A stretch of DNA of 64,000 nucleotides from Hydractinia symbiolongicarpus (taxonomy: Eukaryota > Cnidaria > Hydrozoa > Anthoathecata > Hydractiniidae), in NCBI RefSeq assembly GCF_029227915.1, contig NC_079886.1, forward strand, positions 24,404,501-24,468,500, written 5' to 3'. Shown here piece after piece: positions 18,935 through 63,600 of this stretch. The notes below the pieces were generated by a model. That model saw only the letters and a list, made by a program, of their open reading frames with translations. It had not been told where the DNA came from and searched no databases. Numbering within the stretch: the first letter of the stretch is position 1; the number at the start of each line of letters is the position of its first letter. A program made the translations under genes and the position numbers.

Positions 18935-21900
18935 ATGAGAAAGATATTGGTATCTATATATTTCTGTATGCTATGTGTAACTCACATCGTATTTGGTGAT
19001 CTTTGCGTTCCATCAAAACATGAGATTCTTGGGAAAACAGAAACCGTGAAATGTAAGTCAATTTTCTTGCTGATATTTACTTTCTGTTTATCGTTTGTAT
19101 CGGCTAAAAGTCATTGCTGGAAGTCGAGTTTTGTGACGACTATGCAAGGCTGAAATAAAAAGATTTTTTAGTTCTGAAAAAAATTATTCTGTTCTTCTAA
19201 TAAAACTTTTGGATTTTTTTTCAATTTTTTTTCAATGCTGCCTAATATCTTGAACGGACAAAACGGAAACCTTGTAGACGGTTTAATACCTTTACACGCG
19301 GTGTATAACTCATTCCCGTAAGGACATAATTTATTTTTGAAAACAGTAATTATGTAACATTACATTTACGGCTCCAACTTTTTTCGAGTTGCGTCATGTT
19401 TTTTGTTGTGGCTGTCTTTAGGAAAGCCTTTGATTACCGCTGGTTTCATCTGTTTAACTCGGTTGTATTAAATAATGTCTGTAAAGATAAAATTTTAACC
19501 GCGCGCCAAGGACGACCTACTGTTGTACAAATCTTGTTTTTTCGTTTTTAAACAAAATTTTGAACAGTAAAAACTGTTCAAAATTTTGTTTAAAAAGATT
19601 TGTGAAAAGGTCGATCTTAAAATTACAGAAGTGAATTTTTAACATTTTTTCAAAACTTCCAGGTTTTTTATAGTTAGGTGGAGTGAATAAGGCACGATCC
19701 CGTACGTTAAGACCTAAAACAAGCTACTTTTAGTTGAGAAGAATAATGCAATTAATGTTACTAAAATAGCAATTAAACTAGATAATAACGCGTAATAAAT
19801 TCATAGCGCATGCGTGTAGTCAATAAAGAATATCTTGCGTCATTTTTGACCAACCTCGATCTCAGGACCTATTGTTGAACCAAACCTATCAATAAGTATA
19901 TAGTTCCGATAAGAGAAAAAAAGCCCTGGGAACGAGGTTGGTTTTTGGCAACATGAGCTTTTTTTTCACTTTCATTTTTTTTAGCTTTAAATCTACAAAC
20001 GTTTCAACCACGCAACGCTACGTATTTTCGCAGTTTTATACTCGACGAAAAATATAATCGACTGATAGTTGGCGCGAGGTGAGATATTATTTACAAAATA
20101 TAACATACCATTTGAAAGTAATATAACCAGACAACAACGCAAAACATATCTTTTCTACAAAATGAACAAATTTTTAATGATTTGCAACATTTTTTAGAGA
20201 TAATGTTTTCTTTCTAAACGATACAACCCTGGATGAGCTGAACGTATACGAATGGGCGTCTTCCCAAGATGATCTAAGCACTTGTTTGAAAGAAAAGAAC
20301 GAACAAAGACTGTGTCGGAATTACGTACAATTTTTAGCTATCCATAAAAACAAACTTGTAATGTGTGGTACAAACTCCTTATCACCGAGACATCAAATCC
20401 TCACATTGAATAACCTTACAGTCAAAGTTGACCAAGAAGAGAAGGATATATGTGCTGCACCATGTCCGGATAATACCGTAGTAGGTACGGTAACAAAGAG
20501 CGGAGAACTCATCACTGCGACATTCGCGGATAAAACCAATCGTTACCCGGAAATCGTTAGTTCGTTTACTGTCGAGAAAGCTGCAGTAAAAAGAGCAGAC
20601 TTGACAACGAGTACGTCCAAGAATAGAAATATTTTGGACGAACCACATTTCTTATCCAGTATACATGCAAATGATAGTATATATATGTTCTTCATGGAAA
20701 ATGCTGCCGAAAATGATAATTTAAGAACAGCAACTGTTGCTCGTGTTTGTGATACCGATAATGGTGGTAATGAATTTTTCGTGAAACACATGTGGACAAC
20801 GTTGCGGAAGCTGAGATTAGTTTGCAGTATAAAAGTCAACTCGCGTGAGGCGTATGAGTACAAAAATATGGGTAAGGGTATATTTTAGGTTGTAAAAAAA
20901 TATCTTATAATAGTGAATAAGTTAGTCAGTAAGCAACTAAGATTCTCGGAGATTCCACCATGATGACTGCTGAGTTACAAATATTCCTTGTTCTCATAAA
21001 CTTTCATTCTATAGAAACAAGGTAGATTTTGATTCTTCTCAAGATATCTACTAACATACGATTATATCATAAAAATATATGGATCACGATTTTAAGATTT
21101 AATTTTTGTTTTTTAGTTGATGTTGCGTACGATCGTACGAGAGATGTCTTTTATGGTGCTTTTACTATGTACAGGTATGTTTAAACTAACCTGTGAAGTA
21201 CATGACTTTTTATTTTCTCAAAAGATGCACTCAAATATTTATTTCTATTTTTTTAGCAACAAAAAATTGTCGTCAGCCATATGTACTTTTTCAAGGAAAG
21301 ATCTTGTCAACGCATTCAATGGTCGATTCTTAAGTAAAAGTGGAAATGTATGGAAACCAGTATCAAATGGAGATTTCTTAGATGGGGTAGGTTATAGAAG
21401 AAATCATCAAATCGTGAAGCTTAATAATCTTGACAATACTCTCGTTTATAACCTTTATAATATACACTTGTGTTTGAAAGTTTTTTTGTTTTGTTAAAAA
21501 ATATAGTTTTCCAAAACTACAATTGGTGTCTAAGGAAAAGACGTAGAAGGTTTTTATTTGATATTATTATGCGTATAAAGCATGTCAACCTCGTCCCCAG
21601 GGTCTTGTGAAGCCTGAGCCGTTATTACGGAGTGGCCGCTATCAACTTCATTAACAAAGCAAAATGCCCTAGGAACGAGGTTGGGAGCATTTATGCGCTG
21701 CTCCTTGAAGTTTTATATCTTCAATTAATTTTTTTCTCTGTGTTTTCCCCATTATTTGTTTTTTTCCAACTCTAGTATGATTCTAAAATTATAAATAAAA
21801 AATAATAATAAAAAAAATCGTAAATTGACATTGTGTAGGAATTAATTTAGTATTCCTGTCAAGGAAAGCAAAATAAGATAACTTTTTACGTCACTGGTAA

Positions 21901-24900
21901 CAATTTTTTTTAGTGTACGATTAAGCCTGACAAACTGGAATCCGATGTACTCAAAACATCACCAGGAAAAGAACCAACGAACAGTCTCGATATACCGTCA
22001 ATAAATGTCGCACTTCTGTACAACTTGATGGAAACCAAAGTGTACTCAACACAAAGTGGAATTTCCTTCATGTATCCTGCCACCAGGTAAAACCCTTTCT
22101 AATAAACATCAAATTATTTAAGTTTTTTTTTATCTTATAAGAAATATACTATTTAAGTTTACGCCTGGATGTTTCGTAACTTTTTTGGTAGTTTTTATCA
22201 AGTTTGCCTGATCCTTAATTCATATCTAAAAGGATTAGAAGAGAATAGGTTCTTCTATACTTCTTCTTCATTTGGACAACGATGGACAACATCAAGGAAC
22301 CCTGAGAAAGTTTGAAAAAATGCGGTTCTGCCTCGTGAAAAAAATTGTCTTTAATGCTTTTTAGTAGAACCCTTTTTACAAAAAAGGAATATAACAATTT
22401 TTTTTTTAGTTTCAGCAAATTCGCGTTTGACATTATAAAAACAAATGGTAGTTCACAAAACATGACCATCTTCTATATTGCAACAGGTACGCAAAATTAT
22501 TTTACTTCTTGGAATTGGCGTATTAAGTTTTTAATTTTCAGCCATACTTTTAGCATCAATTTTGAAATAATCATCTGCACGTATAATTAATTAAAAAACT
22601 GAATAAATTATCAAAAAAATCTAGCAGATGTTTAAAAAGTCTCACTTGAGCATCATTGCAATATTAGATTAATTGCAAAATAGGCATCAGAGAGTGTCCA
22701 TTTTAAGATGTTAATGCTCATAAGCAAATGCGATTTTTATTCTATTTAGACGACGGCAGTGTATTTGTAACCTACGAGAATACCATGTTGTCAACAACTT
22801 GTGTTATTGAAGAGTTAAGAACCGATTTAACAAATGTTCAAAAAATGTTTTTCAATAAAAAACAGGTAAGAGAAACTACCATCAGGCAAGTTTCTACTAC
22901 TCTATTTGCAAAACCTCTCCACTATCAGCTGATTCTGGTGAACCTAATAAAATAATGTATACAGAAAATTAAGTTTTGTCCTTTATGTTGATTTTACTCA
23001 AGAACCTTTTAAACTTTCATTGATAAAAGGGATCGTATCATTATTTTAGCGAATTTTATATCTTTCGTCAGACGAAAAGTTGATAAGCCTTGATTTTAAA
23101 AGCTGTGGTCGTTACAAGTATAAAATGTAAGTTTTCTCTTTTACTATTTTTCTTCTTAGTACATTTATTAATTCTTTAATATTATTCGTTATTTTTATTT
23201 TCTTATGTCATTTCTATTATTATTAGGTCATGTGTAGAAGCTCACAATCCTTTATGTGGATGGGACGAAAGAAAGCAAATGTGTTTATCTACATCTCTCC
23301 CGTAAGTGTTTCTCTTTAAATTTTGCTCTTGAAATAATAAGTATCCCTGAAAAGTAGCCAGCAATTATATTTGTTAGAATTTCTTGTGAGCCTTCTGTTT
23401 TGGTTTAGATCAAACTTAACGCAGGACTTATCAGCTTGCCCAAAAAGAACAGGTGATAAAATTTTTTGGAGTAATGATAACTTTTCCAATTCATTTCCAT
23501 GACAATAATTTCTTTCCATACGATTTTAATAACTGTACTTTTTTGTACCATGTTAATTCATGGAAAAAATTATATGTATAATTTGTAATAAAGCCGTAAA
23601 TCTTTAACGATTTCTCGACAAAATAAAGGTGTATCATGAAATAAATATCTCGTAATTTATTTTCACACCAGAATATTGGGGTGGTTGGTCCAATTGGGAA
23701 GCTTGCGAACAAACCAACACAAACAAATATTGTTTATGTCGTAAAAGAAACTGCTTGTCTTGTGACAAAATTCTTTGCAAAGGAGAAGATTTAATGCAAG
23801 TCGCCAACTGCACTGGTATGGTATTTTTTACTTGTTTAATTCTGGCACTAATATTTGTTCCTTGTAATGTCTCATGGTTAGATTCTTTAATGCTTTAATA
23901 ATTTACGTATTTACTTCATACTAACTGAGAAACTTTCTGCTACCTCTAAGGACTCCCATTATTGAGTCACGTAACAGCAACGTTATTTGTGAGATGTAAA
24001 ATTTGAGTTTAGTTTTAGAAGATTTCCTCTTGGCTTTGACCCACGATTGTAAAAATATCACAATTCTCTTACAAATTGGTAAACTTGAACTGGTTAAAAT
24101 CTGTTTTCTCCTCTTATGTAGACTCAACGGTGATACATCTGTGAGATTGTAATCATTTAATATATAAACCTCTAACGACACCTAAATCTTTTTTTAATCT
24201 TAGCTACACCTGTCAGTAACGTTCAAGCATGGTTAAAAACAGGAGCTGTAGATGGTCACTGGTCAGCATGGGGATCCTGGTTACCTTGCCATACAGGTTT
24301 GTGTGGTAAAGAAACAACAACAAGAAAACGTTCATGTACTTCACCATCGCCGACGAATGGTGGGAAAGAATGCTCTGGAGCTTCGTTTGAATGTAAATCT
24401 TGCGCCAAGAAGCCAGGTTCGGAATTCTTAACCTTTTAATTGTACGTGTTTGTAATTTTTTTGCTATTCGTGTAGTTATTTAGTTCAAGGATAATATTCT
24501 TCTACAAACTAGTTACATTGTAATACTTTGTAGTGAAAAAAGGCTACCTATAGTCAGGACCTCTTTGGCCTTCAAATATGTTAGCAGCAGTGCAATGAAA
24601 ATATATTTAACTAAATTGAGATTGACAGCGACTAACATTGCTGCTATATTGTTGGTCTAAAATATCTAAAAAAAACATTTTCTTCCCTTTAGAACCTTGC
24701 TTTTTAACACTGAGCACTTGGTCAAAATGGGGAGCATGTGCTAAGATGAACGAAGAAAAATATTTTCAAACGCGCACACGTTCATGCAGTCGATTGTCTG
24801 GATGCAATGGTGTTTTATCTGAAAGAAGGCATTGTGCACCAAAAGGAATAATTTGGGGAGAATGGAGCAAATGTAGTTGTTTTTACAAAGTTCAACATCG

Positions 24901-26098
24901 CTTGCCATTGTTCATTGCTGGCTGTGTCGATTGTCCACAGCTTCAAGAGGCACAGTATCAGAGATGCACACCTCAAAACTGTGTCGTACCAAGTATGTCT
25001 ATAATACTTTCTTTATATCACTGGTATTTCTCATGACTTTATGTCTGATCTGTTCTAGATGGTTCAAATGTGTGTATTCTGTCAAAAATGAAAAATAAAA
25101 AGAATACAGTGAAATCCCGCTAACTCGGACCTTTAAGAGGATAAAAAATTTGTCTCGATAATTCTTGATAACTTTCGTAAAAAATACGTTTTGGTGAAAA
25201 TAATAAATGCATTGGAAAACGTTTGCCTTTCTTGATTTCTTTTTAAATTTCATACTTTTTCAACAATCATACGTAATTGTATTCTTCGTCTCTTTCCGCT
25301 ACGTAACACCATGTTAAATGGGATTCTACTGTATAAGCTTTTCTATATTTTTTTTGTCTCTTTGATAATAACCGTCGTCCATCTGTCTGTCTGTCCGCGA
25401 AAGACGCGTCCTGTTACGGAAACACGAAATGCGGTATATAAAGGACGGGCGACCCCGTGGATTTTTTCACGGATTAACGGCTAGTCTCTATAATAATAGC
25501 CGTATTTTGCCTGTTTTGTCTGTTTGCAAGAAAAGTGTTGTGCAACGGGCACACGAACTAACGTGTATTTTAAAAACGGACGACCCCGTGGATTTTTTCA
25601 CGGGTTAACGACTAGTTTTAAAAATTGCTATAAAACAAATGTTATAGTTTTCGAATCACTTTCTTTTTTTTAGCTATAAGACCATCGAGACAAAACTCAA
25701 CAGGTAACAATGTTGAAAATATCACAACGACCACCATACCGTTACCCACACCGGAAACCAATGAGAGATTCCAATGCAATCGAGATGGTATTGTGATCAA
25801 GCTACATTCTTTGCTTATTGGAATAATTGTCCCTTGTGTATTAATCATAATAATCGGTATAGTAGTAGTCATTCTTGTGAGAAGAAAACAGGGCCAGTTT
25901 AAAGTTAAAGAAGACAAACAAGAATTGGCTTTAGAATATGAACTAGGAGGTCCTGATTTGATACGAAATCAAGGTGTGCCTCAATCACCAAATGATAAAA
26001 AGATGTTTGATGAAGATGGGATGTCTTTCAGGCCTAATGGAAAACTATATAATAAAGAAATTGATGAACCATTACTGCAAAGTACAAGCAGTGTATAG
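18935..26098 (+). CDS. Semaphorin, class-5-like: Sema-PSI-TSP1 repeats-TM
   Basis: A single-pass membrane guidance ligand or receptor of the semaphorin/plexin system. Exons: 18935-19052, 20200-20871, 21117-21174, 21257-21386, 21914-22086, 22410-22486, 22750-22865, 23050-23126, 23227-23301, 23409-23452, 23672-23815, 24204-24416, 24693-24992, 25674-26098; the sum is 2622 nt (873 aa plus stop) with all phases matching. Residues 1-21 form a signal peptide. The Sema propeller spans about 40-465, with DVAYDRTRDVFYGAF and SAICTFSRKDLVNAF typical of the fold. The PSI domain, about 466-514, carries SCVEAHNPLCGWD. Four cysteine/tryptophan-rich segments of TSP1 type follow (about 515-733; WGGWSNW, GHWSAWGSW, STWSKWG, IWGEWSKC). 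A transmembrane helix lies at about 778-801, then a 72-aa tail ending TSSV, a possible PDZ ligand. Semaphorin with TSP1 is the class 5 plan; vertebrate members have seven TSP1, so this one is shorter. In the 20198 region two AGs lie 2 bp apart and only the second keeps frame. Exon 1 is the least certain exon. Confidence 0.9.
19545..19596. repeat. 24-bp perfect inverted repeat with AAAA loop, in semaphorin intron 1
   Basis: The arm 19545-19568 is exactly complementary to 19573-19596 with a four-base loop; the core is ACAAAATTTTGAACAGT. Pairing resumes outside (ACAAATCTT near 19527 with AAGATTTGT near 19596) after a bulge on the left side. It lies on the transcribed strand of intron 1. It could be a foldback MITE or a pre-miRNA-like hairpin. 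Confidence 0.8.
19851..19940. mobile_element. MITE of the CAACCTCG family, semaphorin intron 1
   Basis: Starts CAACCTCGATCTCAGGACC and ends AAGCCCTGGGAACGAGGTTG, inverted ends 90 bp apart. No coding capacity. It shares the internal phrase ACCTATCAATAAG with the copy at 1758-1902, so both descend from one subfamily. Confidence 0.65.
21586..21683. mobile_element. MITE of the CAACCTCG family, semaphorin intron 4
   Basis: Starts CAACCTCGTCCCCAGGGTCT and ends ATGCCCTAGGAACGAGGTTG, 98 bp apart. It lies between exons ending at 21386 and starting at 21914. The flanks read GCATGT and GGAGCAT, so a short target duplication is not obvious. Confidence 0.7.
25366..25617. repeat. Interspersed repeat with internal duplication, semaphorin intron 13
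   Basis: The phrase CGACCCCGTGGATTTTTTCA followed by CGG.TTAACG.CTAG occurs twice (25451-25484 and 25583-25616). Between them is AATAATAGCCGTATTTTGCCTG. A related sequence lies in reverse orientation at 44822-44890, and a weaker relative at about 4880-4950. The family is unnamed here; no coding region is visible. Confidence 0.6.
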
Positions 26099-30632: not shown

Positions 30633-31475
30633 AATGTAATAGAATATGCTTGTTCATCAGCAAAAAGTTCATTCAGCAACAACAAAATTATCTTGCGTTA
30701 TATTTAATTAACTAAGTTAATATTTATATCAAGATTCACGTGTAAAAAATTGAAATTAAGATTCTTCACCAAATCATAGTGTGCACGTTTTGATATCCTG
30801 CGTACGCGTTTTCTCTGTCCTGTAATTTTTTTTGTGGTAATAATTAAAATATGTTTTCCCTGAGAGGAAAATTGTGCAGCAGTTTAGAGAATTTGGCGAA
30901 GACACCGTAAAAAGAAAAGATAAACCCTGCCTTAAGGCTTACTTTAAAGAGCTTTGGGAGGGAGAATAAAGTTGGGCTTCTAAGGTCAAGGTTAATCGTA
31001 CTCTTAATCACCTGACAAGGAAAGGTATTCTTATTCTTAAGAAAAGTTGCATCAGAAAGCGTAAACAAAGCACTGGGAACGAAATTAGTGGCGGGAATTG
31101 AGCACGTAGGTCACGTCACTTTTTTTAAATTCCCAGAAATAACAGCGAGAAACAAACAATCCGCGAGGTCCCCTTCAGGAATTTCCCGACATCTATCCGA
31201 TTTAAAAACAAAAACAAAGCTTCGTTAAAAATTAAAATTGTGGCAAATTGCGGGCATGTGGTTCTGACAGATATATAAAATAATGTAAAATTAAAGAAAA
31301 ATGCTTTCTTAGTGTTAGGAGAGGTTGCAAGCTAGGATGTATACATAAAAATAAATGTGGTAAAAGACTAGTGTGAAAACATTAGGACAAAAACATGAGT
31401 GAGCTACAAATGCGTATTGTTAGTTCACTAGGTGTACTTCATGAGTGTTTATGTTTGGTATTAAAGACCTTATCA
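30633..31475. other. Intergenic; presumed 5' region of the HEPN gene
   Basis: No coding exon is visible. CACTGGGAACGAAATTAG at 31071 is another partial MITE-like end. The promoter and any 5' untranslated exon of the following gene should lie here; I could not identify a core promoter with confidence. Confidence 0.45.
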
Positions 31476-31519
31476 GTTAGACAAGGACATTGGGTGGAGA
31501 CCCAATGTCCTTGTCTAAC
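31476..31519 (+). promoter_or_regulatory. 20-bp perfect hairpin enclosing the start codon of the HEPN gene
   Basis: GTTAGACAAGGACATTGGGT (31476-31495) is exactly complementary to 31500-31519 with loop GGAG. The proposed ATG at 31505 lies in the right arm, and residues 1-5 are encoded by the stem. If transcribed, this would be a very stable hairpin over the initiation site. It could be a translational control element, or an assembly/foldback artefact. Confidence 0.7.
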
Positions 31520-34500
31520 GATGGTGACACTGCTTTATCACAAGTACTTAAAACGGTACCCTTAGAATTTTTAAAAACCATTGATTCACTGACTTATCCA
31601 GGAAACAAGGAAAAGATCTACGATGGTGGTGCAGTATGGCCAAAAATAACTATCAATGCTTTAGACACAACCTTAATTTTTAACATTTTAATTTCAATTA
31701 AAGGTTATCCAACTTGTTACAAAAGCAGTTCTACAAAAAAGAAAAAGAAAGGTAAATCCTGTAAACAAACAGACAATGGGCACACTGGAAGGTGTTGTGT
31801 GACTTGCACACACACATGCCTTAAATGTAAGAAAGGCACAGAATGTTGCAAATGTTGCAAAATGATTGGTGCGAAATGTAATCATAACTGCCATAATGTG
31901 GAATGTAGCATGCTGAAATATGACTGTTATAAATGGTCAAAGATATGTTGCAATAAATGCATGACTTGCGGGCATTGTAATGCTATAAAGCCGGTGAATG
32001 AGCAATGTGCCATTTACAAGTTAAAGGTTGCTATTGCTAATATTCATAATATTCGAAATTTATTCTCACATGGATTGGAGTTTGATGTGGAGCCCTTAAA
32101 AGAGGGAACCTTTTTTCACCCAAACTTTCCAAACTGCAGTAAATGGGAATCATTTTGTGCATTAATGGATAAATCCTTGGAATATTGTCTTCAATTTCTC
32201 AGTGATACCGGACATACCAAACACATGCGTTTAAAGCAAGAAGTAGTTGATCGTATGAAAAACGATCTTCATGTTGCTGAACATAAATCAATAAAAGAGA
32301 TTGAAGGACACTTCAACGTTTCTTGTGATGAAATCTGGAAGTACATGCACCAAATTGTTAAGATAAACGAGATGCAATATAAAAAAACTAAAAAGTTTGT
32401 TAAAAGGGCGCTCAAAAGAAATTCAGTGGAAACAAACAAACAACTTAATTTGATTTTAAAACATTTGGAAACTCCTACAAAGAAAAACAAAACAATGAAA
32501 GGTGAAAAATTAAATCTCATTTTCGTTATAAGTGATAAAGTACTGTATATAGTTGTTTAATTACTTCTGCACTCAAATGCACCCAGTCAATTTATATGCT
32601 GTTCCTAAAACAGTGGTATTATTCAAATCTGTAATCCTTAGTTATGTATATAACGTGAGACAAACATTAATAGTACTCTAAGTGTTGAACAATATCCATT
32701 TATAATGAATTTTTATATGAACAGGAATTCAATTGAAATTTGAAATATTCTAAATAAATAGTTATGATACGAAAAGTTGATTTTGAAAAAAATCCCTTCA
32801 GATAAAATTCTTTTCTTGAATAATCCTGCCTATGCTTTAAAAAATGTAATATACGATGAGGCCAAGCATTGATAAGTATGATTGATGAAAATAAAGTCTT
32901 TTGAGATACTTCCATGATTCATACAAAATTATGAGACTGTATAGTTTTTACATGTTTGATTTACAAATTGGAATAAAAACAATTCAAGAAGGGCATAGGA
33001 ATATGTTAGCTTGTAAGGACACCAGTACAAGAAATTACTAGGATTAATTTCAGTTGTAAACATAATAACATAAGAACCTTTAATAAGGGATACTTGAAAC
33101 AGGAAAAATAGTTGCAGTATTTTGGATCAGATCATTTTCATGTTGTTTTTTAGAACTGAATTATATCGACTACGACAAAAGGTTAGCATTTTTTTCCATA
33201 TGTTATATATGCTGTGTTATATATGTGAGCAATCCGATGTTTATAGGCAGCAAGGTGTTACCTGCTCATTTGATGATTGCTGAAATAAATCTTCTTGAAT
33301 GAAACGTATTTACTCTATTATTCCTGCTTCTTTAATATCCCGGTTTCTCTAGTAAACTTAGCTTTTGACATGGCTCGAAAAGACAATCCTGTCTTTTTAA
33401 TAATCTTGCATGCAGAATTGCTTTGTGTTGTTGTATATTTTATAGTTTGTACTTTGCATATGTTCTTCAATATTTTTACTGCATGGCGGTGTGAGTAGGC
33501 TCATATGACAATTTCAAATCCATACAGAATCTATTAAAAGTTGGAAATGTTGCATTTTCATTGGCATAGCAAATTTGCATTAAACCTATTTGTGTTTTAT
33601 AGCTTTTTACTAAACATACTTAAATGACTATACTTATGTCAGTTTCTTTTGTTGAAAATATAGATACTAATCTTCATAGTTTGAAATGATAACCCAGCCT
33701 ATCTTTATTTTTAAAATTGAAATGCTAATCCCATAGTGGAATAATAGAGTTAATATTAAATGTGCCACTAAGGAAAGCATTTTCTTTCTGGAAATCTGAC
33801 TTTATTTAGCAAGTGTAATCCCACTGGATTTTTCTGTAAAAAGCAAAATTTTGTTTTTTCTAATACATAATTGACAAGACTATGTATTTGCCAATTTTTT
33901 TTTTCACTTTGGTGTGTTTTACAGACCAGGTGAATAACAGGACAGATGACCTATTTCATACAACTTAATACTAAGTGCTACAAGTTTTGTCAAAATTCAG
34001 TAAATTATTTACTTCTTCTCAAGAGGTAAAAACATGCTTTCCATCCTGAAATTTCACAATATACTTTCCATAACAGCACTATTTGTTACTAAATATGGCA
34101 GTACGATGGTCTCAGAACCCAAAATTTGTTATTTATGTTCAAAATAGATCTGGTCCATAAATTGTACGTAAAATTGATATAAAAAATTGACATTAACTGA
34201 ATTTGATTCTTCATAGGATTACTAAATTGCTTTTAAGAAAATAATCCATTATTTTTGTTAATAACAAAAGATTATTTATTAATCTTTTGTGTGCTATTGT
34301 ACTTTAGATTTTATTTGGTTAGAAAGACAGCAAGTGGATGTGTTTTGTCATGTGTTATTGATACACCAATCCAAATAGACAAAATTCTGATTTCACGTGA
34401 ATGGGATGATTGGATGAGTACCACTCAATCTTCATATGGTATTCAAGGTAACAAACTCTACTTGGATATTCAGAATCTTGAGATTGGATATAAATATAGT

Positions 34501-37500
34501 TTTCGAGTATCTCTAAAAGAAGCTGGAGAATTTGAAGAAGAAATCAGTGTGATTGGTTTTGATGATTTGGAAGTTGTAGGTAAGGTTTGAAGAAGCTTTT
34601 TGATGAATTATGCTTTGTTTACAAAAAAATAATATCTATATGTTAAAAATTTTTGTAAGGAAACGGAAAGATCCTCTGATTTAAACTATCTCTTTAATTT
34701 CAGATGGTGACAAATGTAACCACGTATCAAGTGTTGATGGCATTATTGTTTGTGCACATAACAGAGGTGATGTAGACGACGCTCACGTTTTTGTTGGAGA
34801 AGTAGAAAACTTAAAAAGAGCTGACAAAATAATGTGTTCTTTTACACCTGGAGCAAATATCAACAGAATAACTTTGAGTGAGTTTCAAGAACTAGGAGAC
34901 AAGTATCTTTACCGAAATTCGTGCAAGGAACTAAAACCGTACATTGAGGATGTCCTACGTTTCCCTGCTTCATATTTAGTTGAGAAGAATGACGAAATAT
35001 TACAAGTCACTAACATGCTTGAGAAGCGCCTAGAGAAATATAAATCCCATTTCCGCGCAATTATATCTCAATATAATGATGAATATCACTTAAAGTATGC
35101 TGGGTACACACGTAAACAATTGGACGAACAGGGTATTTATTCAAGAAATCATAAAAATAGGATTGTTTTACTTACTTCAACCTTGCCAGCTGTAGTTAAT
35201 ATTCGCATAGCTTCTGGTGATTTAAACGAAATTCAGAAAGCATTCAGCGCTACGAACATAGACTTAAAGTCATTGCTACTGACTTATAAGTACCTTTTAA
35301 AAGGGAAACACATCCCCTTGTTTGGAGTTGTGGCTTGTCCATCTTTAACAAGACATCAAATTGACGAGTTTCAATTCCTGTGTGATACATGCAAGCCATT
35401 TGTGCTTACAAAGGATGATTTACGCGACGTTGATGCATTTAAGCAATGGTGGTTGGTTACTCTGCAAGAAACTGTTGATTCGTCTTTGAAGCAGTATGAT
35501 GCACCAATGACAGATAATCTGAATACGCTGTTCTTCCAGATTACAAGCCAAACAGTTGCAGTCATGGCAACTATTCGTACTGACCTCCCTACATTATCAG
35601 CTAACGTGAATGACCAAGTTACATCAATAATGCTGAACAAGCACCAACTGGAAGCAATTTATGGTCCGGAAATGAAGAAAATCGTAAAAGGTTCTTACGG
35701 TAGTGGAAAGAGCGTGGTGGCTAAACAAATTGTGAAATCTATTTTCTCTAATTCAACTGTAAAGACGTGTTTGTATTATATATGTGGTGATCCGTTTACA
35801 CTGCTTGATTATGAAATGAGGAGGTTTGCTGATGAGCTTCACAGGGTTTACAGTAATAGCCCTGTTGAAATTATATGCAAGAATATCACTGAAATGGCAG
35901 GAGAATATGACCTGGAAGACTTCACACCTTATGGTCTTTTGCATCAGCTGGGTGAGAAACATAAAGAAACGTCTGGTTGCCGTGTCCACGTTGTGATTGA
36001 TGAGTATGATGGGGAGTATTTCCGCCAAGGCGAATCCAGCAGACTTCGTACTTTATTTCAGTTTAATGATGCCTTTAAAAATTCATACGTTGTCATTATG
36101 ACTCGTGGTCTAGAAAAGGAGAGAACGCTACATGTTGGAGAAAAGATGCATCCGCATTTTAGTAACTGCTTTCAAGGTACTGGTATGGAAATTATCAACT
36201 TGCCGTCAACCATGCGTTTTTCCAACGATGTACATCAGCTGCTTGCATCTGCGCAGCATACCATCTTTAAAACAAGGAGTTGCCTTCACTCAGTCATTGA
36301 TACAAGCAAAGATAATATTGACGCGAGCATTAAGTCTGTGGACAGTGTTGAAACACTCCATGCAAGAAGAAATAAAGAGTCAAGCTATCTATTCGCCCAT
36401 AACAGTTTAAATGGCGAAGAAATTAATCTTTATTCGGAGAACCTCTGTGAAAATCAGAATATTCCCCCAATGAGAAATTTTGTTACCAATACGTTTACTA
36501 CTGCTGCCATTAATTCCAATGCTACAACACCTGAACCCTATCCTTCCTCAATCAAAACCAATTCACGAATCAAGTTGGATTTCGATCAAGTGTCACACCT
36601 GGTTGGCCTTGATGAATCACACAGCAACGCTATGACAACAACCGTCTTTAACTATATTCGTGGAGATTGTGGCCACTCACTAACTGGACAGAAACCAACT
36701 ATGTATTATTTTCCCATGGAATTCCATGACAGAGGTATAATTGCTCTTAGCATGCTCTCCCAAGTTCTCCACCATGAATGTCTTAATACATCCGGAAAAG
36801 TGGTGATCATTTGTAACGACATAAGAGATAATGAACTAGTAGTCAACGCATTCCGTGTGTTGATCACACGATCAGATTTTACCTACGTGAATTATGTTCC
36901 TGGCCTGACAGGTCAAGTACCGACCAGAAAAGAGAAGGATGCAATCGTCGAAAAATTCCACGGATATAAGAAATGTGTTCTTATTACAGATAATCAAGGT
37001 TTTCGGGGTTTAGAGTGTGAGACTGTAGTAATGACAATCAATCCGAACGAATACTACAAACGTCATTTCTTGGCTGAAAGTGTTGCAAGATCTACATCGA
37101 GATTATTCATGCTGGTAACATCACAAAAAGAATCTAGAAATAAACAAGGTACATTTCAGAGTGTGATTGATGCTTGGATTCGGGATGATTTGGTTCGAGT
37201 TAGAAGAGTCAAGACAGGACTCTACTCGAACATTTGTAAGCGAAGTGAAGAAGAATGTATAGTTGATCTGGATCTGATTGACAAAGAGAGTATACAAACG
37301 CAGTCGATTCATAGCAACGCTGTAGCCTTTGCTTTGGAAGATGCCAGGTTAGATTTTAATATTTAATTTATCTTAAACAATACTATAAAAGAAAAGAGAT
37401 GCAGCAATAACGTGACATGACTTCAATTCGCCTCTTCTAAGGCGGATATGTTAACCTTATTTGGTATGGGTGTATAAAGTACCTGCGGCAAATTCAAATT

Positions 37501-39334
37501 TTAATATCTATTAAATTATTTTAAGCACAGAAACTTTCACGTTTTTTGCTTTTTTGGTCATTTTCATGCCTTTAACCAACAACATTTGGTTTTTTTATTC
37601 ATTTCTTTGCTATCCCGATTCCTTCAAACAGTTGCAGATTTTTGATTACCAATAAAAAAAAAGAAAAAACTAAAGAGGATTGTTGCCATTCGCGCAAGAT
37701 TTTTTCCTTGCAAATGAAGTGATTTTTTTAGTTTCGCGAAAGTTTTTTACGTGAAACTCATCCAATAGTTTTTGTTGCAAAAAAGTAGTTGTTGAATGTG
37801 ACTATTAATATTTTTATTTATTGGCACATTTTCCAACAATTTTGATGACGTCACAAATATTATTATACATCGCTAAAAGCCACCATAGAAAACTCTTCAA
37901 AACAAAAACAAAAAATAATGATCATATGAGCATGAAAATTTTACATTGTTATTAACTCAAATGTTGCCACCATCTGTTTTGCTCAATTTTGACGATCTTA
38001 AACACTGATCCATTTTTTTGCAAAAACGTGAAAATATGTTTTACAAAATGTGACAAAATATTGCCCAAAACACGATTTTCATAGATAATGGTTTTTTCCT
38101 CAATTTTAAAATTGCTGATGATGCTACACATCCAAAAATACTGATGTCAGCAAAGAAATAATTATGTCTATAAACTGTAACTCTGTCAACAGTTGTGGAC
38201 AGCGGGCACTTTTAAGCCCCCTGCACTGTCATGGCCCAAAAACGCCCATGCCAAATAGGGTCAGAAAATGAATTCATCAAAGAAAAATGTTTCTTCATGA
38301 AGTGAATTTGCAGAATTCGGTATTTCAACCAGTAAGAAAAATGTTAGGTTATTGTGAACATTATTTACTAAAAAGTTGCATTTTTTAGACGCGTGCATGA
38401 ACGTTTTAATGCTGTTGCTATAAGTATTGGGTAAGAATTTATTGTTATTTTCGGGGTTTTTTTGTTTTTTTAGTATTTAAGCTAATTTTCACCTTATTTA
38501 TTTATCCAAGGTCTCAACTTGATGACGCAGCTAAGGAACTTCCGCAAGACGGTAAAACTCTGTATAGTAATATTTTCTTTAAGAAGCAGACTGGCGTCAT
38601 TTTTTAGTGCATTTTAAAAAGTGAAACAATTTTTGTATGCTCTCTCACGCTTATTTTGCTAGAAAGTAAAAAGAATGTTGTGTGTTATCTTGACGTTATG
38701 TTATCTAGAAGTCTTAACATAACACCCCGAAATAAATTTCATTTTGCTGAAAAGCGTTTGAATACAGAATCTGAGTCCGAGCTACAGATTAAAACGAGTT
38801 ATGGTTGCCTTTTTGTAGATTTCTAAATTTGGATCGAATTACTTTTTTCTTTTAGTGATTGATTCGATCGAAGCAGAAAACAAGGAAGATATATTTGTAG
38901 CACTGTTGAACGAAAATCCTGATATAATAAAAATGTGTGACAGAAAGAACAAACGCAATCCTCTTCTTTGGTCCGCTTATCATAATCGTCCAAAGATCAT
39001 GAAATCTTTGCTGCAACAAGGTTGCGATGTAGGCGTTGCTGATAACTTACCTTTAACGTCATATCACTGGTGTGCACGTAACGGCTACAGCGAATGCCTA
39101 CACATGCTTTTAGAGCGTGATTGTTCCTACATTGATAAACTAGACGGAGTAAGTCAGACGGCTTTAATACTTGCCGCGAAGCATGGCCAAATTGATTGCG
39201 TGAAATTGCTACTTCGGTATGGTGCAAATGCTCAAATAAGGAATGTTTCTTCGCAAACAGCGTATGATGTTGCTGGCACGAGAACGTTAACGCAAAATAA
39301 AAAAGCTGTCGAGGACTTACTTTCATCAGTATAA
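31505..39334 (+). CDS. HEPN - SF1-like helicase/NTPase - ankyrin-repeat protein
   Basis: Exons: 31505-32501, 33154-33181, 34308-34579, 34704-37347, 38389-38430, 38511-38551, 38856-39334; the sum is 4503 nt (1500 aa plus stop), all phases match. Residues 1-270 resemble the DZIP3-like HEPN domain, with the Rx4H RNase signature RNLFSH at 184-189, interrupted by a 62-residue cysteine-rich insert (97-158, 18 Cys). Residues about 345-430 form a beta-rich module (REWDDW...YKYSFRV), like CBM48 or another Ig-like fold. Residues about 755-1240 are a two-lobed P-loop motor: Walker A GSYGSGKS 762-769, Walker B VIDE 863-866, NLPSTMRFS, then motif V-like GFRGLE 1198-1203 and motif VI-like VARSTSR 1226-1232. 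About four ankyrin repeats end the protein (1342-1500). HEPN domains of this kind usually cleave RNA; the ATPase may sense nucleic acid or remodel a complex. The role in defence is inference. The ATG at 31505 is the first in-frame ATG of the exon. Confidence 0.85.
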
Positions 39335-46049: not shown

Positions 46050-49000
46050 ATGTCAAAAAATAATGACGAAACTCTGCTAACTTTAATGTCAATGGGATTT
46101 GAGTATGCTGAGTGTAAAACCGTTTTGCAGGATGGCTTAAAAGACGTAGAAGAAGCGATTCAAAGGTAAAACTAAGGCTAACTAGCTACACAACTGACAA
46201 CTAATTTAGGGATTTCTGTATGAAAGCCAAACATTGTCGTATGCTTTTACTAATATATCTATAGCTACATATATAGCTAGCTAGAGAGATGTCAACTATT
46301 TTGGTGTAGCTCAGAGGATTCTCAAATCCAGGTCAACTGTCTTGATATTTTCTGATCATTTTAAAAAAAGAAAATGAACAACTTACCGGATCCACCTGTA
46401 TGGTCTTTTGTAGACCAACATATCAGGGGTTGTTTTAGAACTGGGGCAGGCAGTCTTCTTTGACTTGCCCCCTAACAGTCGCAAAATGTGGTTTATGATT
46501 GCTGTAAAGGAAAAACTCACTTGATGAGTTAGTTTCAGAAAAACCCTTATAATTTATCAATACTTTTTTATTTTTTCTTATTTTTTTTTGTTTCTGAATG
46601 CTTGATGAAAGATGTATTTAATGGTGTTATTTTTTATTTTCTCAAAAGAAAATATGTTAAATAAACATCCCATTTTTTTTTCACCCTACGTTTTAAAATT
46701 GCTTCTTTTTCCAAACGCGTGGTTGTAGACTTCAAGTTTTAGCACTATTGCATTCAGCATAAATTAAATTCAAAAAGGTTCCTGTTTTTTTTTACTAATA
46801 AGGTCATTATAAAATTATTTGTAATTTTATATATATAATTATTAAAAAAATGCATATATATTTTTGTTGTTGTTGTCATAATTGCTTATAACTAATTTAG
46901 CTATATATATATACAAAAAAATCCGGAACTTTTTGTGCATAACTTATTCAGCTTTCCATTACCAAAAATTTGAATGAGACAATAAAAAGTTTGCGAAAAT
47001 TTACTAAGATATTTGTTTTTAAAGATTTTTGTAGGTGTTAAGAAAATGTGCAAACAGTATGTGCAAAAAGTATGCAGAAAGATGATAGAAGTGGAAAATT
47101 TTTCTTTATGCTAAATATGCGTGCACGCGTTAAATTATTAATAGACAGAAGTCATGGTTACATGAGACAGCGCAATTAAAAAATGCCTCTCACCTGTGGA
47201 CTTGTTAGTAATTCTGTTTGTTATTCTTAAAAAGATGATTACGTTATTGTTAGGACAATTATCTACATCAGCTAGCTTCGAATTTTTCACAATCTTTGAT
47301 CTCATATACATATATACTCCTTAACTTTATTTTTTTTCTATGATTTTTTATACAACAACAATTGATGGTGGAAGTAAACTAAGAAATATTATTATGCATA
47401 TATTTTTTCCAGAAAAAAGGGATTTCCAAATATTTTCATGGAATATAGAATATGTTATTCGAAAGAGAATTTTTTCTTCTATATGTCATAAATTTTTTGC
47501 AAAAAACCTAAAAAAACATTGGTTTCCTTTACAGTTACCTTCGTAAACTTTTTAAGAATGTTTATTGAAGTGGCAGACACTGCTTTCTCTGGTTCCATTT
47601 CTTAATAACCGAGGAACAAATGAATTTTTTCTTTATCCAGTCTACTACAGTACTGTAAAAAGGTATCTTAACATCGTGATCCTCTATTATGCAGGATGCG
47701 AACGATACGCATATTTTTGTCTCAATAGAAGCGAATCATATTGCGTCTATCAGTATGTCGCGATAGGCTCGATCTATCGCGTAGTATTACTCGATGACTG
47801 AACTTCAAACAAAACAAAACAATGCTTAAAAGAGTTTCTTTTTTTCTATGATAATTTAGGAATAATAATTCTTGTGTGAATAAAGTTACACAAAGTTGCC
47901 TGACTTTCGACAAAAGTAATTTATCTGGAGGTGTAAAACGTTGTTAGTTTACAAACATTTTTATATAAGAATCATTCTTTTTTTGTTTGTTAAAAATCGA
48001 CATTTCGAGCCTTGAATAATTCGTAAGATTCTTAAAATGTGATCTAAAAAAGCTTTTCTATTGCAGTTCTTCGTTCTTAAACTTTTAAAATGCAATCTAA
48101 AAAAGCTTTTCTATCGCCGTTCTTTGTTCTTAAACTTTTAAAATGCAATCTAAAAAAGCTTTTCTATCGCCTTTCTTCGTTCTTAAGTTTTTAAAATGCG
48201 ATCTAAAAAAGTATTTCTATCGCCGCTTTTCGTTCTTAAGTTCTTAAAATGCGATCTAAAAAAGCTTTTCTATGTTCGTTCTTTCTTTCGAAAATTTGAA
48301 ATATCACCAATTATTTCTAAAATATTATCAAGAAGGAGTTTTCTTTGGTTACCATAAAAACTACAGCGCAAGAGGAAGTGAGACATGGTTTCTGATTCTA
48401 AAATTCCACAATTACATAAGCGTATCAGCGAAGTTATGCCGATGCTTATGGTCCTTTAGGTGACTCATACTAACTCTTAAACTTGTTAACAATTCCAAAC
48501 CAAGAGAGTCTATTATATTATAAATAGGAGAAGGTTTAGGGCGAATAAACTTGAGAATGGATTTTTTAAACAAGGGCAAAGAATCTAATTCCCTGATTGC
48601 TACATCGAGTTTGTTCCATTCACTTATCAAGTATGGGAAAAAAGAATTCGCAAAGTAGTTACTTCGTGATGGGATGCGATTAAATAAATTTTTACGAAAA
48701 ACACTATGTGAACTAGGAAAAATATCAATGAGAGGAGCATCTCCACTATGTTGGACTACGTTGAATTTTTCAAAATAAAATAGGATACTTTATAATATTT
48801 TGAAAAATTTCCTGCTAAGATTTTAATATAGGAAATAGTTTCCCCATTTATATTTTTAGTATATAATCTTTAGACTCCTGTGTAAAAAGGGTGGTAGCAA
48901 AGAAGAAAATTATGAAGTAAATGACGTTTTAAATGGCAGTCGAAACTCATTAGATGAAGCTTGTCCCACATCTTATGATGTTGTAGAAAATGAGGTATAG

Positions 49001-58329: not shown

Positions 58330-60667
58330 TTTTAATTGGTGATGGGTAGTTGTTACGAAATGTTACCCTATATTTTTTTGCATAAGAACTTGAAAATTTG
58401 AAATAAGGCTGCTTCTGCGAAAAACACAATTAGTTTTATGTTAAATGAAGAAAACAAAAGAATAAAGAATTAAACGTTGCCTTGTGAGCTATGTGATTAA
58501 ATAGTCCTATTTAAAAAATAAACCACAAGACAGGTATAAGTACACGAAGCCAAGTTTAGATTTTGTCTTTCTTCCTCCAAAGTAATATCTTGGAGGGACG
58601 GTCGTATTAATCACGGCATAAAAGACTAATTAAAATACTTTTAAAACACATGAAAAAGATTCATCAATGCGAATAATGCAATTAATATGTGCTTAAAAAC
58701 ATCCACTATCTGGTACTAAATATGTTTATAAGTAAAAACATGCACCTTCCATCACATGCGAATATTAATTCCCCAGAAGTGCGAATATTTCACATTCTTT
58801 TTTAAACTGTGAAATTTCTGATAAAGCCAATAAGTGCTCTTCAATGTTTATTTTTATAATTCTTTCGTTTTTCTTGACAATTCTTGTTATTTGTAAGTTT
58901 TGTAGTTCGTACTCTAGGTATACGTTTTGGAAAGTTTAATATTTTATTGTTGTGTATTAAAATAAATTGTAAAAATAAATTAAAATAAGTCCGGACGTCT
59001 GATTTTCCGATAATGTTAATGTTGTTCACAAATGCAGGATGTCTGCCAGGAAATCTTATTTTAAGACTAGTTGACCTTGAAATCCTGATCCTCGTGAGTT
59101 CATCTGTGAAAACAGGTATTCCCACGCGTGTCGTTAACAAGTAATCGATCATAGTCTTTTTGTATAAACATAGTGTATACTTTTTCAGCTTCGGTATGTT
59201 AATGAAACAATTTTCACCTTAACCTTTCCCCAGGACAAATATAAAAAGCGTAACAATTCCTAAGGATGAGGTTTATTTCAACCCTGAAAAATGAAAACTA
59301 AATGAAAACTTTTTTGAACTTTTAGGATGTATAGTTAAAACTTTGGTGCGAGCCACTTGAATTTTGAAAATCTTTGAAAGCATGCTTTAATTGAAGAGCT
59401 AAAAAAAGTGCGTTTGCTCAATCAAATATCATTTTTGACCACTCCCCCTTTATTCGCTCGAGTTCGCGTTTGTCATACCTTGAAACTTCTCAACGTTTAA
59501 ATGTAATGCTTATTATTGAAAAATTTTACTTTTTCATAAAAGTATTTAGTATTCATCTCGCAAAACCCAATATTCAAAAATAACTAAAGGTCAAAATTTT
59601 GAAGGGTTTAGTGGCTTCACGAAAGCCTAGCTTATGACGGAAGGAAAGTTTTGAGGGCAATGAGGACAAAAACAACATCTTAAATCCTCTTTGATATCGT
59701 GTTTGACATCCAAATATAACTAAAATTATGTATATATACTTTTTTTATTTAAAAAATGTGCCAAATCATAGAAAAGCGATTTTTTCTTTGCCAATAATGT
59801 GGATGTAACTTTTTGTAGCTTGACCATCTGATTGGTCTCGTTATTACGCTATTTTATTCAGAATGTGCGAGGATGGTGCGAGGGATGGAGCGAGGATTAT
59901 CAGTGACGGAGATCTTACCTTGAGCCGTTTTATAGCCACTTTAATTTTCCACTTGTTTTGATAAGGCTTGTTTTCGAGAAAAAGTCAGATATTAGTACAA
60001 AATTAAAAACTGTGTTGTTTCTCATATAGCAAATTTCACAATTTTTAAAGTTTGAATCAAGGAATTTATATATCAATGCCATTTTTTTAAAAAAAAGGTC
60101 ATGAAAAGCTGCGAGGCATTCAAAGTCTCGAGTTCCGGGTTCCGAGTGGTCAAAGTCCTGGATCCCGAGTCCCACTTTTCCGATATGCCAAGATGGATTC
60201 TCGGAATTTTTATTTGAAATCGGTACTTCGTCGTAGAGCTTAGTTTATGGAATCGTTGTTCTCCGACTTACTTACGGGAAAAGTCATTGAAAAATGTTCT
60301 AAGGCAAACATAATCACAGATCCTACTGGTTGGACAGTTATTTCTTTCCTTATAATAAAATTCATTTTGTTATTCCTCCTTGACTGTTGTGAACGGTGAA
60401 GGAGACCAAAAAGGAATTTGACGGCAATAAACCGTGATTGGTTAGACTAATTTCTTTTATTTTCCTTTTTAAAACTATCTACAACATTTCGTGTGACCAC
60501 GAAACAAAAACATAGTTAAAAAGGGAAATTTGTTGGCGTAATAAAATTCGAAAGTTCGTTATTAATCATCAGCAATATTTAAATGCAAATAAGTGCTTTA
60601 AATGTGAAATACCTTATCCCTAACGGATAAGAATAATATGTATATCTTTCTTTAATCACAACAAAAT
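58330..60667. other. Intergenic region upstream of the TAX1BP1-like gene
   Basis: No exon is supported. A 103-codon minus-strand frame (58841-59152) has no motif I recognise. At 60118-60175 there are reiterated short phrases (TCGAGTTCCGGGTTCCGAGT, GATCCCGAGTCCC), a decayed G+C-richer minisatellite. The promoter of the next gene should lie in the last few hundred bases; nothing diagnostic was found. Confidence 0.5.
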
Positions 60668-63600
60668 ATGGAAGATTCTGTTATGGACTCGTTTGATGGG
60701 GTTATATTTCATAATGTCAGGGAATATTGCTCTGCAAATGATGTTATTACCTGTCACTTTGCAGTAAAAGAAAATTGTGATATTAATGTTCCTAGTGATT
60801 GTTATGTTGGTTTATTTCATGTTGGTTGGAACACCCTATCCAGCTGTTTAACTAGGAAAAGTTTTACTTTGGTTGAGCATTTGACAAGTGGTTTATACAG
60901 TTTGGAATTCCATGCGAATGAAACACCAAAAGCAAATTATGATGAGTTTTACCAATTTTGTTTTTTTAATGAGAAAACAGAAGTTGTTTTTGGTGCTAGT
61001 TGTCCGTTTCAAATATGTGATTTAAAGCATATGGAATCGTTTACCCCAGTAGGTCATGAAGATGTTTGGTGGGCTTCTCGAAACCCAAATCCTGTTGATG
61101 AAGATGTTGATGATACCGTGTTGATTCACAACAAAACAACAATGCTGGAAGAATCATTAGCCAAAACTGTTGAAGAAAACGAATTACTGAAAACCATAAA
61201 ACAAAAGTTTGAAGCAGATCTAGCAAAATGCTGCATGGATAAAGAAAAATACATAAAGGAATCAGAAGAAGAGATGATCGAGTTACGAGAGAAAGTTAAA
61301 TTTCAGCAAGATCGGTCTAATATTTTTGAACAAAGTTTGGCAGATTCAGACGAGATCATAAATCACCTTAATGGAAAAATTAGGGACCTAAATGAATATG
61401 TTGCAGAGTATGCTGAAAAGTTGAAAACCAATGAAAAATCATTTGCAGAAATTTCGAACGAATACAAGGCAGTTATGATGGAAAAAGAAATTTTGATTAA
61501 CAAATTGACTGAAAGTATACAACTTAATGAAGAAGAAATTAAGAAATCTTTGGATTTAGAAGAAAAGTTTAAGACACACCTCCAGGAATTTGAAGCCATA
61601 AAAAAGAAGCTGGAGTATGAAAAGAGTGCTAATGCTAATCTTGAATTGGAGTATCAAGATATGGTATCATCCTTTACAAAGCAGATTGAAGCATTGTCTA
61701 AGGAAAACAGTGATTCTAAAGAGCTACATGATAGAATTGCTGATATGGATAACAAGTTAAATGCGGAAAAGAAGAAAAACTCATCCTTGTTAATTGATGT
61801 GAACAACTTGGAGACAGCGCTGGAAAATGCAGAAGCCAAACAGAAAAAAGGACAGCTTACCTTCCAATCTGAAAAGTCCAGGCTTTTGGAAATCATTGAA
61901 GAAAGATCTAATTTTATTCAGCAACTGAACAATGAAAAGGAAGAGTTACTAAAGAAATTAAAGGAAGAAGAGAAAAAGTGTTTGAAAATGATTGAAAAGA
62001 ATAGAGATGTGGTTTCTAAAATGGAAAGCAAAATAGATAAATCGGAATCAACTTTTTCTAGTGTGAAATCGGATTTGATAAAGCAGCAGGAAGAATTTTC
62101 TAAGATAATTGGGGAAAAAGATGCATATATTGGTGAGTTGGAAGAAAATTTGATATCTTTAAAATCCAAAGTTGCTGAATTACATGAAGTTATTGGAGAG
62201 CAACAAAAAAATGCAAGTAAATCAATTGCAGAATTTAAAGCCAAGGAAACTGAACTTCATCAGCTCCTTGAAGAATTAAATTCTAAGCAAAACTTGTCTA
62301 AGAAACCTGCTAAGTCACGAAGTAATGGATCTCTTCATGCTCTTCAAATTGCAACTGCTCATATGCAAAAACAAGTAACAAATTTGAAAAAGGAAAAAGA
62401 TTCCTTTCAAAAAATGTTTAACCAGCAACACCTTGGTGGTGATGTTGGTACACAAGAATTAAGAAGAGTAAATGAAGAAATGAGATTACGACTGCACTTA
62501 GGAAAAGAAAAATACAAGGAAAAGTATTTTGAGTGCCAGCACTTGCAGATGGAACTTGAACAACTGAGAAATGAAAAAAAACAAAATAACATGAATAATG
62601 TACATGAAGGAGAGAAGACTGAGGTATATACACCTGTTTGTTGTGTTATACATTATAAAAATTCCAGTCATTTTCACAAATATCACCCGATCTTTATGAC
62701 AGCCAATGAATTAACTTTAACAATTTTTTTACATATCTTAGCACAAGGCTTGTGAGACTACACCTAAAAAAAATGTATGATGTGGTTGTTATTTTTAGTC
62801 AGAACAGAGCTCCTCCTCTTAATATATTGTAAAGGAGGGGATATATGTTTGAGATTTTGCCATCTGATGTCGCCTTTCAAAAACCTCCTATTTTAAAGTA
62901 TTTTTGAAAATCATTCCCTACTTATCTCCCTCTTAATTTCACATATAATTAAAGATTGGAAAAAATATTAGTTGTATAAGCTATTTAATACTAAAACTAG
63001 GAAATTTTCAAAGATGTTTTTAAAGCCTGGCTTATATTACGGGATACATTTTGTTCGTTAAAATTGTTCCTGTTTTTTCTTAGATGGAATATGTTGCAGC
63101 ACATTTTGTTGAACAGATGAAAGTACAACACAGTCAGGAGCTAGATAAACTGAAGTCAGAAAAAGAAGTGTTGGAAAAGAAGTATTCCGAAGCTCAAAAC
63201 AATTTGACCAAATCTGAACAAGAGGTGTCAGACCTCTCGAAGGATGTTGAGGGAATGAAAGTTAAAACAAAGAAACTTGCTGAGCATTATGAAGGGAAGA
63301 TTAAGTTAATGGTGGAAGAAAATGGGGTGTTAAAGAAGCAAAGAGATGCTGTATTGGTAGGAGGTATGTAAACATGTTATTCAAAGCTTAGGGTAAGCCT
63401 TTTATACATAAACCATTCTGATGACCTTTGAAATAAATAATTTTTAGGGAAGCCCATGTTTTATATTTAAATTGCATGACCCTTAAAATTATATCAACAG
63501 ATTCCAACATAAAATTAATGACACAAGAAAAACCTGTTGAGCAAGAGACATTGAAATCGTGTGATGCAATCTACCATCCTCCTTCTGGAGAGGAGAAGCG

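Follow-up and report, generated by a model that had tools for sequence, protein, structure and literature searches.

Introduction

The group 3 Schlafens (SLFN5 and SLFN11) join an N-terminal nucleic-acid or RNase module to a C-terminal superfamily 1 (SF1)-type helicase domain. HEPN RNases act as dimers, and RNase L carries ankyrins, a kinase-like part and a KEN/HEPN domain in one chain. According to the available part of the survey by Anantharaman et al. (2013, PMC3710099), HEPN domains of the CXorf38 family have a zinc ribbon inserted in the domain, are predicted to be active, include cnidarian members and are fused to NACHT, ankyrin, CARD, DEATH and dsRBD domains; bacterial HEPN-SF1 helicase fusions (the MTES_1575 group and DUF4145-UvrD) are placed there in predicted defence proteins. 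That survey and further sources, in their available parts, take as immune the expanded sets of HEPN proteins in animals that are joined to NTPases and repeats (PMC3710099, PMC9646362, PMC8260672), including those of corals, other cnidarians and the pearl oyster (PMC10236652, PMC8260672, PMC9646362), and give Rx4H as the commonest motif of DZIP3-HEPNs (PMC9646362). TRADD-N domains joined to HEPN, other RNase and helicase parts in cnidarians and brachiopods are a different architecture, as far as the available text describes it (PMC8195603). Here we describe a gene of the hydrozoan Hydractinia symbiolongicarpus, read on the + strand of a 64-kb stretch of contig C12 (24404501-24468500; the window), in which an exon read as a HEPN domain with a cysteine-rich insert is followed by an exon read as an SF1-type P-loop ATPase (the motor) and by ankyrin repeats. 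The best explanation of the sequence makes the window gene a divergent member of a large family of HEPN-motor genes that this animal carries. We propose, with moderate confidence, that its product would be a HEPN RNase which the SF1-type ATPase gates and whose sensor tail can be exchanged; that it cuts RNA, dimerises, is gated in this way and serves in defence is inferred.

The likeness to the CXorf38 family, drawn by description only, lies in the cysteine-rich HEPN insert, a putative zinc ribbon in the window gene. The available part of the survey (PMC3710099) mentions neither an SF1-type motor nor a KH tail in CXorf38 HEPNs, and the window exon has no Pfam HEPN match. In a paper devoted to CXorf38 (PMC12196990) the terms HEPN, RNase, DUF4559 and zinc ribbon are all absent. 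The DZIP3/hRUL138-like proteins (PF18738), which include HEPN-NACHT receptors of cnidarians and bivalves, are alike in their N-terminal RNx3H HEPN, central NTPase, C-terminal repeats and lineage-specific expansion, but the window HEPN is missed by PF18738 and has the cysteine insert, and the window NTPase appears SF1-like rather than NACHT. With the group 3 Schlafens the window protein shares an N-terminal module followed by an SF1-type motor, and the leading PDB matches of the motor profile include SLFN5 and SLFN11; however, these matches are sub-threshold and extend only from the Q motif to just past Walker A, and HEPN stands in place of the Schlafen core. RNase L likewise combines ankyrins, a nucleotide-binding part and a HEPN-class RNase in one chain, but in the opposite order, since the window protein has HEPN first and ankyrins last; no kinase match is listed by Pfam. 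The bacterial fusions also pair HEPN with an SF1 helicase, yet they are bacterial rather than animal, the MTES_1575 group has transglutaminase, Vsr nuclease and winged helix-turn-helix parts, and no relative of the window motor was confirmed in prokaryote or viral contigs with two-motif patterns. In the open text of PubMed Central no paper was found that evidently describes an animal HEPN-SF1 motor-ankyrin or -KH family. The family may already be in protein databases under predicted names.

Results

Gene model and family

The gene model was built with a splice-site scan that used a crude weight score and required a phase match between exons, and the genome searched comprised 481 Mb in 76 contigs. 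Stop-to-stop open reading frames for the HEPN (31481-32560, 359 codons), beta-rich (34237-34590, 117 codons), motor (34685-37366, 893 codons) and ankyrin (38819-39334, 171 codons) pieces were found on the + strand where a first-pass annotation, made from the letters alone, had placed them. Six phase-matched exons (31505-39334, +) join into 4461 nt with a single frame and one terminal stop and encode 1486 amino acids. The phase-matched single protein of the first-pass annotation therefore stands, with six exons and 1486 residues in place of its seven and 1500. The sequence GSYGSGKS is at 762, and because RNLFSH occupies residues 184-189 of the six-exon translation (R184, N185, H189), the earlier R184/H189 numbering proved exact.

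Exon 1 as read (31505..32501, +) is an open frame that holds the HEPN domain, the cysteine-rich insert and RNLFSH, and ends at a donor at 32502 (crude score 6.6). A candidate 28-nt exon (33154..33181, +; ELNYIDYDK; acceptor 3.6, donor 7.0) restores the phase between exon 1 and the beta-rich exon, which lies ~1.8 kb from the HEPN exon; it had the top score among five phase-compatible candidates at relaxed thresholds, stricter thresholds giving none. The small beta-rich exon (34308..34579, +; acceptor 1.8, donor 9.9) looks FN3-like by eye and had no match in the Pfam scan. The 881-codon motor exon (34704..37347, +) lies within the 893-codon frame and is followed by a candidate 41-nt exon (38511..38551, +; SQLDDAAKELPQD; phases 2 in and 1 out; acceptor 1.0, donor 4.8) and by the C-terminal ankyrin-repeat exon with the stop codon (38856..39334, +; acceptor 6.1). 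Three donors (32502, 34580 and 37348) and two acceptors (34704 and 38856) had good crude splice scores; two further acceptors (34308 and 38511) scored weakly. Three relatives with the cysteine insert (insert-type; C3a, C3b and C8) have by eye the same phase-2 AG/GT donor at the end of the motor exon, so the motor frame's own stop at 37366 is probably intronic. As part of the whole best explanation, we hold with moderate confidence that the locus encodes one protein, which begins with a cysteine-insert HEPN domain, continues through a small beta domain and an SF1-type P-loop ATPase, and closes with ankyrin repeats.

The motor exon gave 66 matches at no fewer than 51 genomic places, the window included; this is a lower bound, 51 of 109 candidates having been scored. 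These are places and not independent genes, because several copies on contig C2 with equal scores may be duplicates. A HEPN exon lies upstream on the same strand within 13 kb of 43 of the 51 motor exons (39 DZIP3-type, 4 insert-type), eight have none upstream, and no opposite-strand HEPN was found at any of the 51. Were the places uniform, ~0.08 HEPN-motor pairs would be expected, a figure that ignores clustering. One motor place, in an array on contig C3, also has a second insert-type HEPN downstream. The count used 51 of the 66 motor rows, each of the other 15 being an additional stretch of an exon already counted, together with 101 of 128 DZIP3-type HEPN rows (the 27 weakest dropped) and all nine insert-type rows. 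On contig C2, motor and HEPN copies with equal scores occur at ~6.3-7.0 Mb and 11.1-12.5 Mb (for example at 7010896 and 12158401), a hint of a large recent duplication or an assembly duplicate.

HEPN domain

In the eight-row alignment of insert-type HEPNs, which omits L014 (split over two frames; a second insert-type set also omits L015), the R, N and H of the Rx4H/RNx3H motif and six cysteines are invariant (8/8). The cysteine-rich insert, absent from the first-pass annotation, spans approximately 31760..32008 (+), as judged from the translation and alignments, and may be a zinc ribbon. It lies between the helix with the conserved LDxT (LDTT in the window) and the RNxxxH helix, and much of its first half is missing in two rows of the alignment (L016 and L017). 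The window HEPN has eight further matches in the genome; four of these lie on contig C3 (27.67-27.71 Mb) and another lies on C8.

A different HEPN type lies upstream of other motor exons: one copy, L055, matches PF18738 (E 6.9e-21), and 39 of the 51 motor exons are preceded by a HEPN that resembles it. R, N and H are invariant in all five aligned DZIP3-type rows, which represent five of ten loci, four having been cut short and one near-identical copy left out. With the cysteine insert removed, hhalign aligned the insert-type and DZIP3-type profiles with a score of 28.6 and with FDIT and RNxxxH in register; none of 200 column shuffles reached this score (best 20.5), and the reversed profile scored 9.7. 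DUF4145 was touched by one of eight insert-type members (E 0.024). A search of PDB sequences with the single window HEPN exon gave no match, and profile searches for the two HEPN types hit only chains that seem unrelated. We read the window domain as a HEPN of its own subgroup. The DZIP3-type assignment named in the first-pass annotation was dropped, the window exon having no PF18738 match. In L055:5086-6831 the DZIP3-type HEPN exon runs on into many repeats like KQNQDDIKANKDNIQQNEDGI, and the length of the open frame varies among copies.

The invariance of R, N and H in both alignments is as expected of a kept active site and counts in favour of the proposed RNase. It also counts against a different view of the protein, in which HEPN would be a non-cutting RNA-binding or oligomerisation module and the whole an RNA surveillance or silencing ATPase for ribonucleoprotein remodelling or transposon control, with the ankyrin or KH part choosing the partner or RNA. 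The KH domains in the tails of three of three insert-type relatives fit such RNA handling, and the available part of the survey (PMC3710099) proposes that nematode HEPNs, which in some cases are joined to a helicase-type ATPase that is inactive, act as RNA receptors and not as RNases. We regard a non-cutting HEPN as possible but rather unlikely.

C-terminal tails

The ankyrin repeats reported in the first-pass annotation are certain (Pfam Ank_2, E 1.2e-21; NCBIfam matches mainly ankyrin). The window ankyrin exon has a homologue in the tail at L056:5185-5709 (32% identity; 69 bits) and is closer to an ankyrin exon on contig C6 (L001, 88 bits). The insert-type relatives C3a, C3b and C8 all carry a KH-domain exon instead of ankyrins (3/3; Pfam KH_1, E 3e-7 in L048, 2.3e-7 in L053 and 5.1e-12 over two stretches in L052), and the window gene thus joins ankyrins to a HEPN and motor of the insert type. 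The KH tails of the relatives point to RNA. Behind the KH domain or domains, all three KH-tailed relatives have a conserved region of ~300 amino acids (L048:3664-5064, -; L052:7665-9365, +; L053:4386-6008, -) with HHG..H, GPGY-like, STRxN and RRSERK-like motifs, to which the Pfam scan of these relatives gave no name. In the DZIP3-type relatives the motor is followed by an exon that looks FN3-like (Pfam fn3 E 0.0024, short of the cut-off). Two of the three DZIP3-type genes read downstream have an ankyrin exon (L056:5185-5709 and L068:1148-1735); none was found in the next ~6 kb of the third (C15:10000190).

The ankyrin exon could instead be a separate gene, in which case the window gene would end with the motor or have lost a KH tail. 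The weak acceptor of the 41-nt linking exon (1.0), the KH tails of the three insert-type relatives and the greater closeness to the C6 exon than to L056 fit this. However, phases agree across the motor, 41-nt and ankyrin exons, the position of the phase-2 donor at the motor end is, by eye, shared with the other three insert-type genes, and in two of the three DZIP3-type genes read the motor is followed downstream by an ankyrin exon on its own strand. A separate ankyrin gene is in our judgement unlikely.

The 5' end of the gene

A perfect inverted repeat with 20-bp arms and a 4-nt loop (31476..31519) covers what is presumed to be the HEPN exon's 5' end, and an in-frame stop (31478-31480) sits in its left arm. 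The insert-type relatives have ~30 extra N-terminal residues before the start of window exon 1. These features are what would be seen if the window copy were decaying or 5'-disrupted, the hairpin having broken the HEPN start and left a product that is no working enzyme. Yet the 1486 codons that remain form an open frame in which the motifs are intact. The peptide of an out-of-frame ATG at 31395-31475 resembles the missing HEPN helix by eye; it was rejected, its hmmsearch E value being 6.6 (21st of 2106 window open reading frames), and because this match is insignificant a frameshift at the 5' end is not demonstrated. Decay of the window copy is accordingly a doubtful explanation, about as improbable as a separate ankyrin gene. 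The window holds three perfect hairpins in all (1220-1261, 19545-19596 and 31476-31519; arms of 18-24 bp, loops of 4-6 nt), which perhaps arose by template switching or belong to a small mobile element.

The motor

The motor exon consists of a conserved region of ~300 amino acids followed by the P-loop motor. In the window the motor has a Q motif, Walker A GSYGSGKS, VIDEYDGE, motif IV TMR, motif V TDNQGFRGLE and motif VI ESVARSTSRL; the names and assignment of the motifs (Q, I, II, IV, V and VI) are those we presume to apply. The Q, the Walker A lysine, the Walker B DE and the motif IV arginine are invariant in all 17 aligned motors, in keeping with the P-loop motor with GSYGSGKS and VIDE described in the first-pass annotation. 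Across 11 diverse motors Q, GxxGxGK, DE, R, T..G..G.E (V) and E...R....L (VI) are invariant and in that order (11/11). The first 300 amino acids of the exon (34704-35600) show invariant H7, H19, N166, R168, D187 and CxxC (C227, C230) in 17 rows and could form an enzyme or zinc site.

Against the PDB, the motor-core profile gave matches that are all below significance, led by Schlafen-5 (E 0.057), the DNA helicase 5fhd (0.13), which we take to be Pif1, and Schlafen-11 (0.28); a second stretch of 5fhd lies in order over motif IV, with an i-Evalue of 120. The full motor profile matched Schlafen-5 (E 0.079) and Schlafen-11 amid unrelated chains such as mitochondrial ribosomal proteins, and a PDB sequence search with the single window motor exon gave no match. 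In Pfam, the window motor had sub-threshold matches to NPHP3_N (E 1.3e-3; 19.4 against a cut-off of 24.8 bits), AAA_22 (17.4 against 27 bits) and SLFN-g3_helicase (16 bits against a cut-off of 24), among others, and no Schlafen core match is listed for the window exons. The 17 motor members touched AAA_22 (9/17), ResIII (8/17), NPHP3_N (6/17) and DEAD (1/17), and no NACHT model is among the Pfam results listed for the window motor and the 17 members. The PADLOC model NERD+UvrD touched two of 11 members (E 2.1e-4) and two of 17; mad8 and others also touch members, and on the window motor itself mad8 and two others match weakly.

The motif order and the sub-threshold matches make an SF1-type motor the best reading, as the first-pass annotation had it, though the family is far from every model. 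The P-loop part might instead be a STAND/AAA-type switch of NACHT-like kind and the protein a divergent HEPN-NLR; NPHP3_N and AAA_22 point that way, and HEPN-NACHT fusions are common in cnidarians according to the available part of one source (PMC8260672). Both models stay below their cut-offs, however, with NACHT missing from the listed results, while motifs V and VI are conserved after the Walker motifs in 11 of 11 motors, the top PDB matches are SF1-kind helicases (all sub-threshold, as is the stretch over motif IV), and NERD+UvrD, ResIII and DEAD also touch members. We consider a STAND switch improbable. A viral or prokaryotic origin of the motor was dropped as a candidate, no relative having been confirmed in viral contigs or prokaryote genomes, a weak negative because the search patterns were built from two motifs only.

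Tree, selection and linkage of HEPN to motor

In a maximum-likelihood tree of 15 hand-picked motors, the window motor and the three other insert-type motors form one group (support 100/99), and all seven labelled DZIP3-type motors form another (100/100). The HEPN subtype agrees with the motor group, as expected of one gene. This agreement, together with the same-strand linkage, bears out the claim of the first-pass annotation that HEPN and motor belong to one gene, and makes it very improbable that they are two adjacent genes, although the ~1.8-kb gap between HEPN and beta exons is bridged by a 28-nt exon picked among five candidates. The protein is not unique: its general domain order recurs in a large family in the same genome, whose insert-type relatives end in KH. 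Of the profile matches that the first-pass annotation had named, ankyrin was found, DZIP3-like HEPN was not, and SF1 helicase was sub-threshold only. The dN/dS ratio was 0.17-0.84 in 15 of 15 hand-picked pairs of family motors, which argues that the motor family is under constraint (purifying selection).

At three motor places on contig C15 no upstream HEPN was found. Two of them were read upstream and have a short helical exon, death-fold-like by eye (L051:839-1183, -; L067:1222-1545, -); the Pfam scan gave no death-domain match for the L051 exon.

Elsewhere in the window, consecutive frames at 20181-26098 (+) look by eye like a semaphorin-like ectodomain, a thrombospondin-type repeat and a transmembrane segment. 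A 699-codon frame at 60656-62755 (+) resembles by eye a SKICH and coiled-coil autophagy-receptor-like protein, and a frame at 48412-48789 (-) resembles, likewise by eye, the end of a LINE-type reverse transcriptase frame.

Discussion

The window gene has the anatomy described above, its motifs are intact, it belongs with a family whose motors are under purifying selection, and it carries ankyrins where its insert-type relatives carry KH. In the proposed mechanism, the tail and motor would sense a ligand or nucleic acid, and ATP binding or turnover would change conformation or oligomeric state. The HEPN domains might then be released or paired to form a composite, metal-independent RNase site, which could cut viral, transposon or host RNA. 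This switching is proposed by analogy with HEPN RNases and SLFN11. In SLFN11, according to the available part of the source, one switch couples dimerisation with ATP and single-stranded DNA binding, and ribonuclease activity is reduced in the switched form (PMC11615386).

Several results weigh against this interpretation of the window gene. Its HEPN exon matches no Pfam HEPN model, PF18738 included, and hhalign gave the alignment of the two HEPN profiles a probability of only 22.6% (7 and 5 sequences, with the insert removed by choice) or, with the insert left in, 13.9% with only the first half aligned. The window motor matches Pfam helicase families at sub-threshold level only, with nothing above the cut-off, and unrelated chains rank among the PDB matches of the motor-core profile, a capsid protein (E 0.29) following directly after Schlafen-11. 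On the tree the window motor has a branch 2.29 long, for which the tree program warns that placement is unsure, and by path its nearest motors are C15b (no HEPN found; 4.6) and C2f (4.61), followed by C8 (4.64). The motor most similar to it, a DZIP3-type row, is 24% identical, and the dN/dS ratios cover other family pairs and not the window gene itself. The likeness of ankyrin tails is weak evidence because such tails are common, and the window copy may be damaged, since ~30 residues are missing and an in-frame stop lies just upstream.

Tentatively, and at somewhat less than moderate confidence, we suggest that these genes may represent an undescribed immune-type class of animal receptor, present at dozens of places in the genome, in which a HEPN RNase would be gated by an SF1-type motor instead of NACHT/STAND and would carry exchangeable ankyrin or KH tails. 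Such a class would have arrived independently, with HEPN at its centre, at a logic like that of the Schlafens, and the same motor would serve at least two subfamilies of HEPN. Cnidarian and bivalve immune repertoires have so far been surveyed by way of NACHT and other known domain models, and the HEPN-motor family could escape such surveys because its ATPase stays below Pfam cut-offs. As a single kind of motor can carry either a KH or an ankyrin tail, there is a direct way to ask what each tail senses. If the HEPN domain cuts RNA under the control of the motor, the family would add a further animal design, beside RNase L and the Schlafens, for an RNase switched by nucleotides or nucleic acids.

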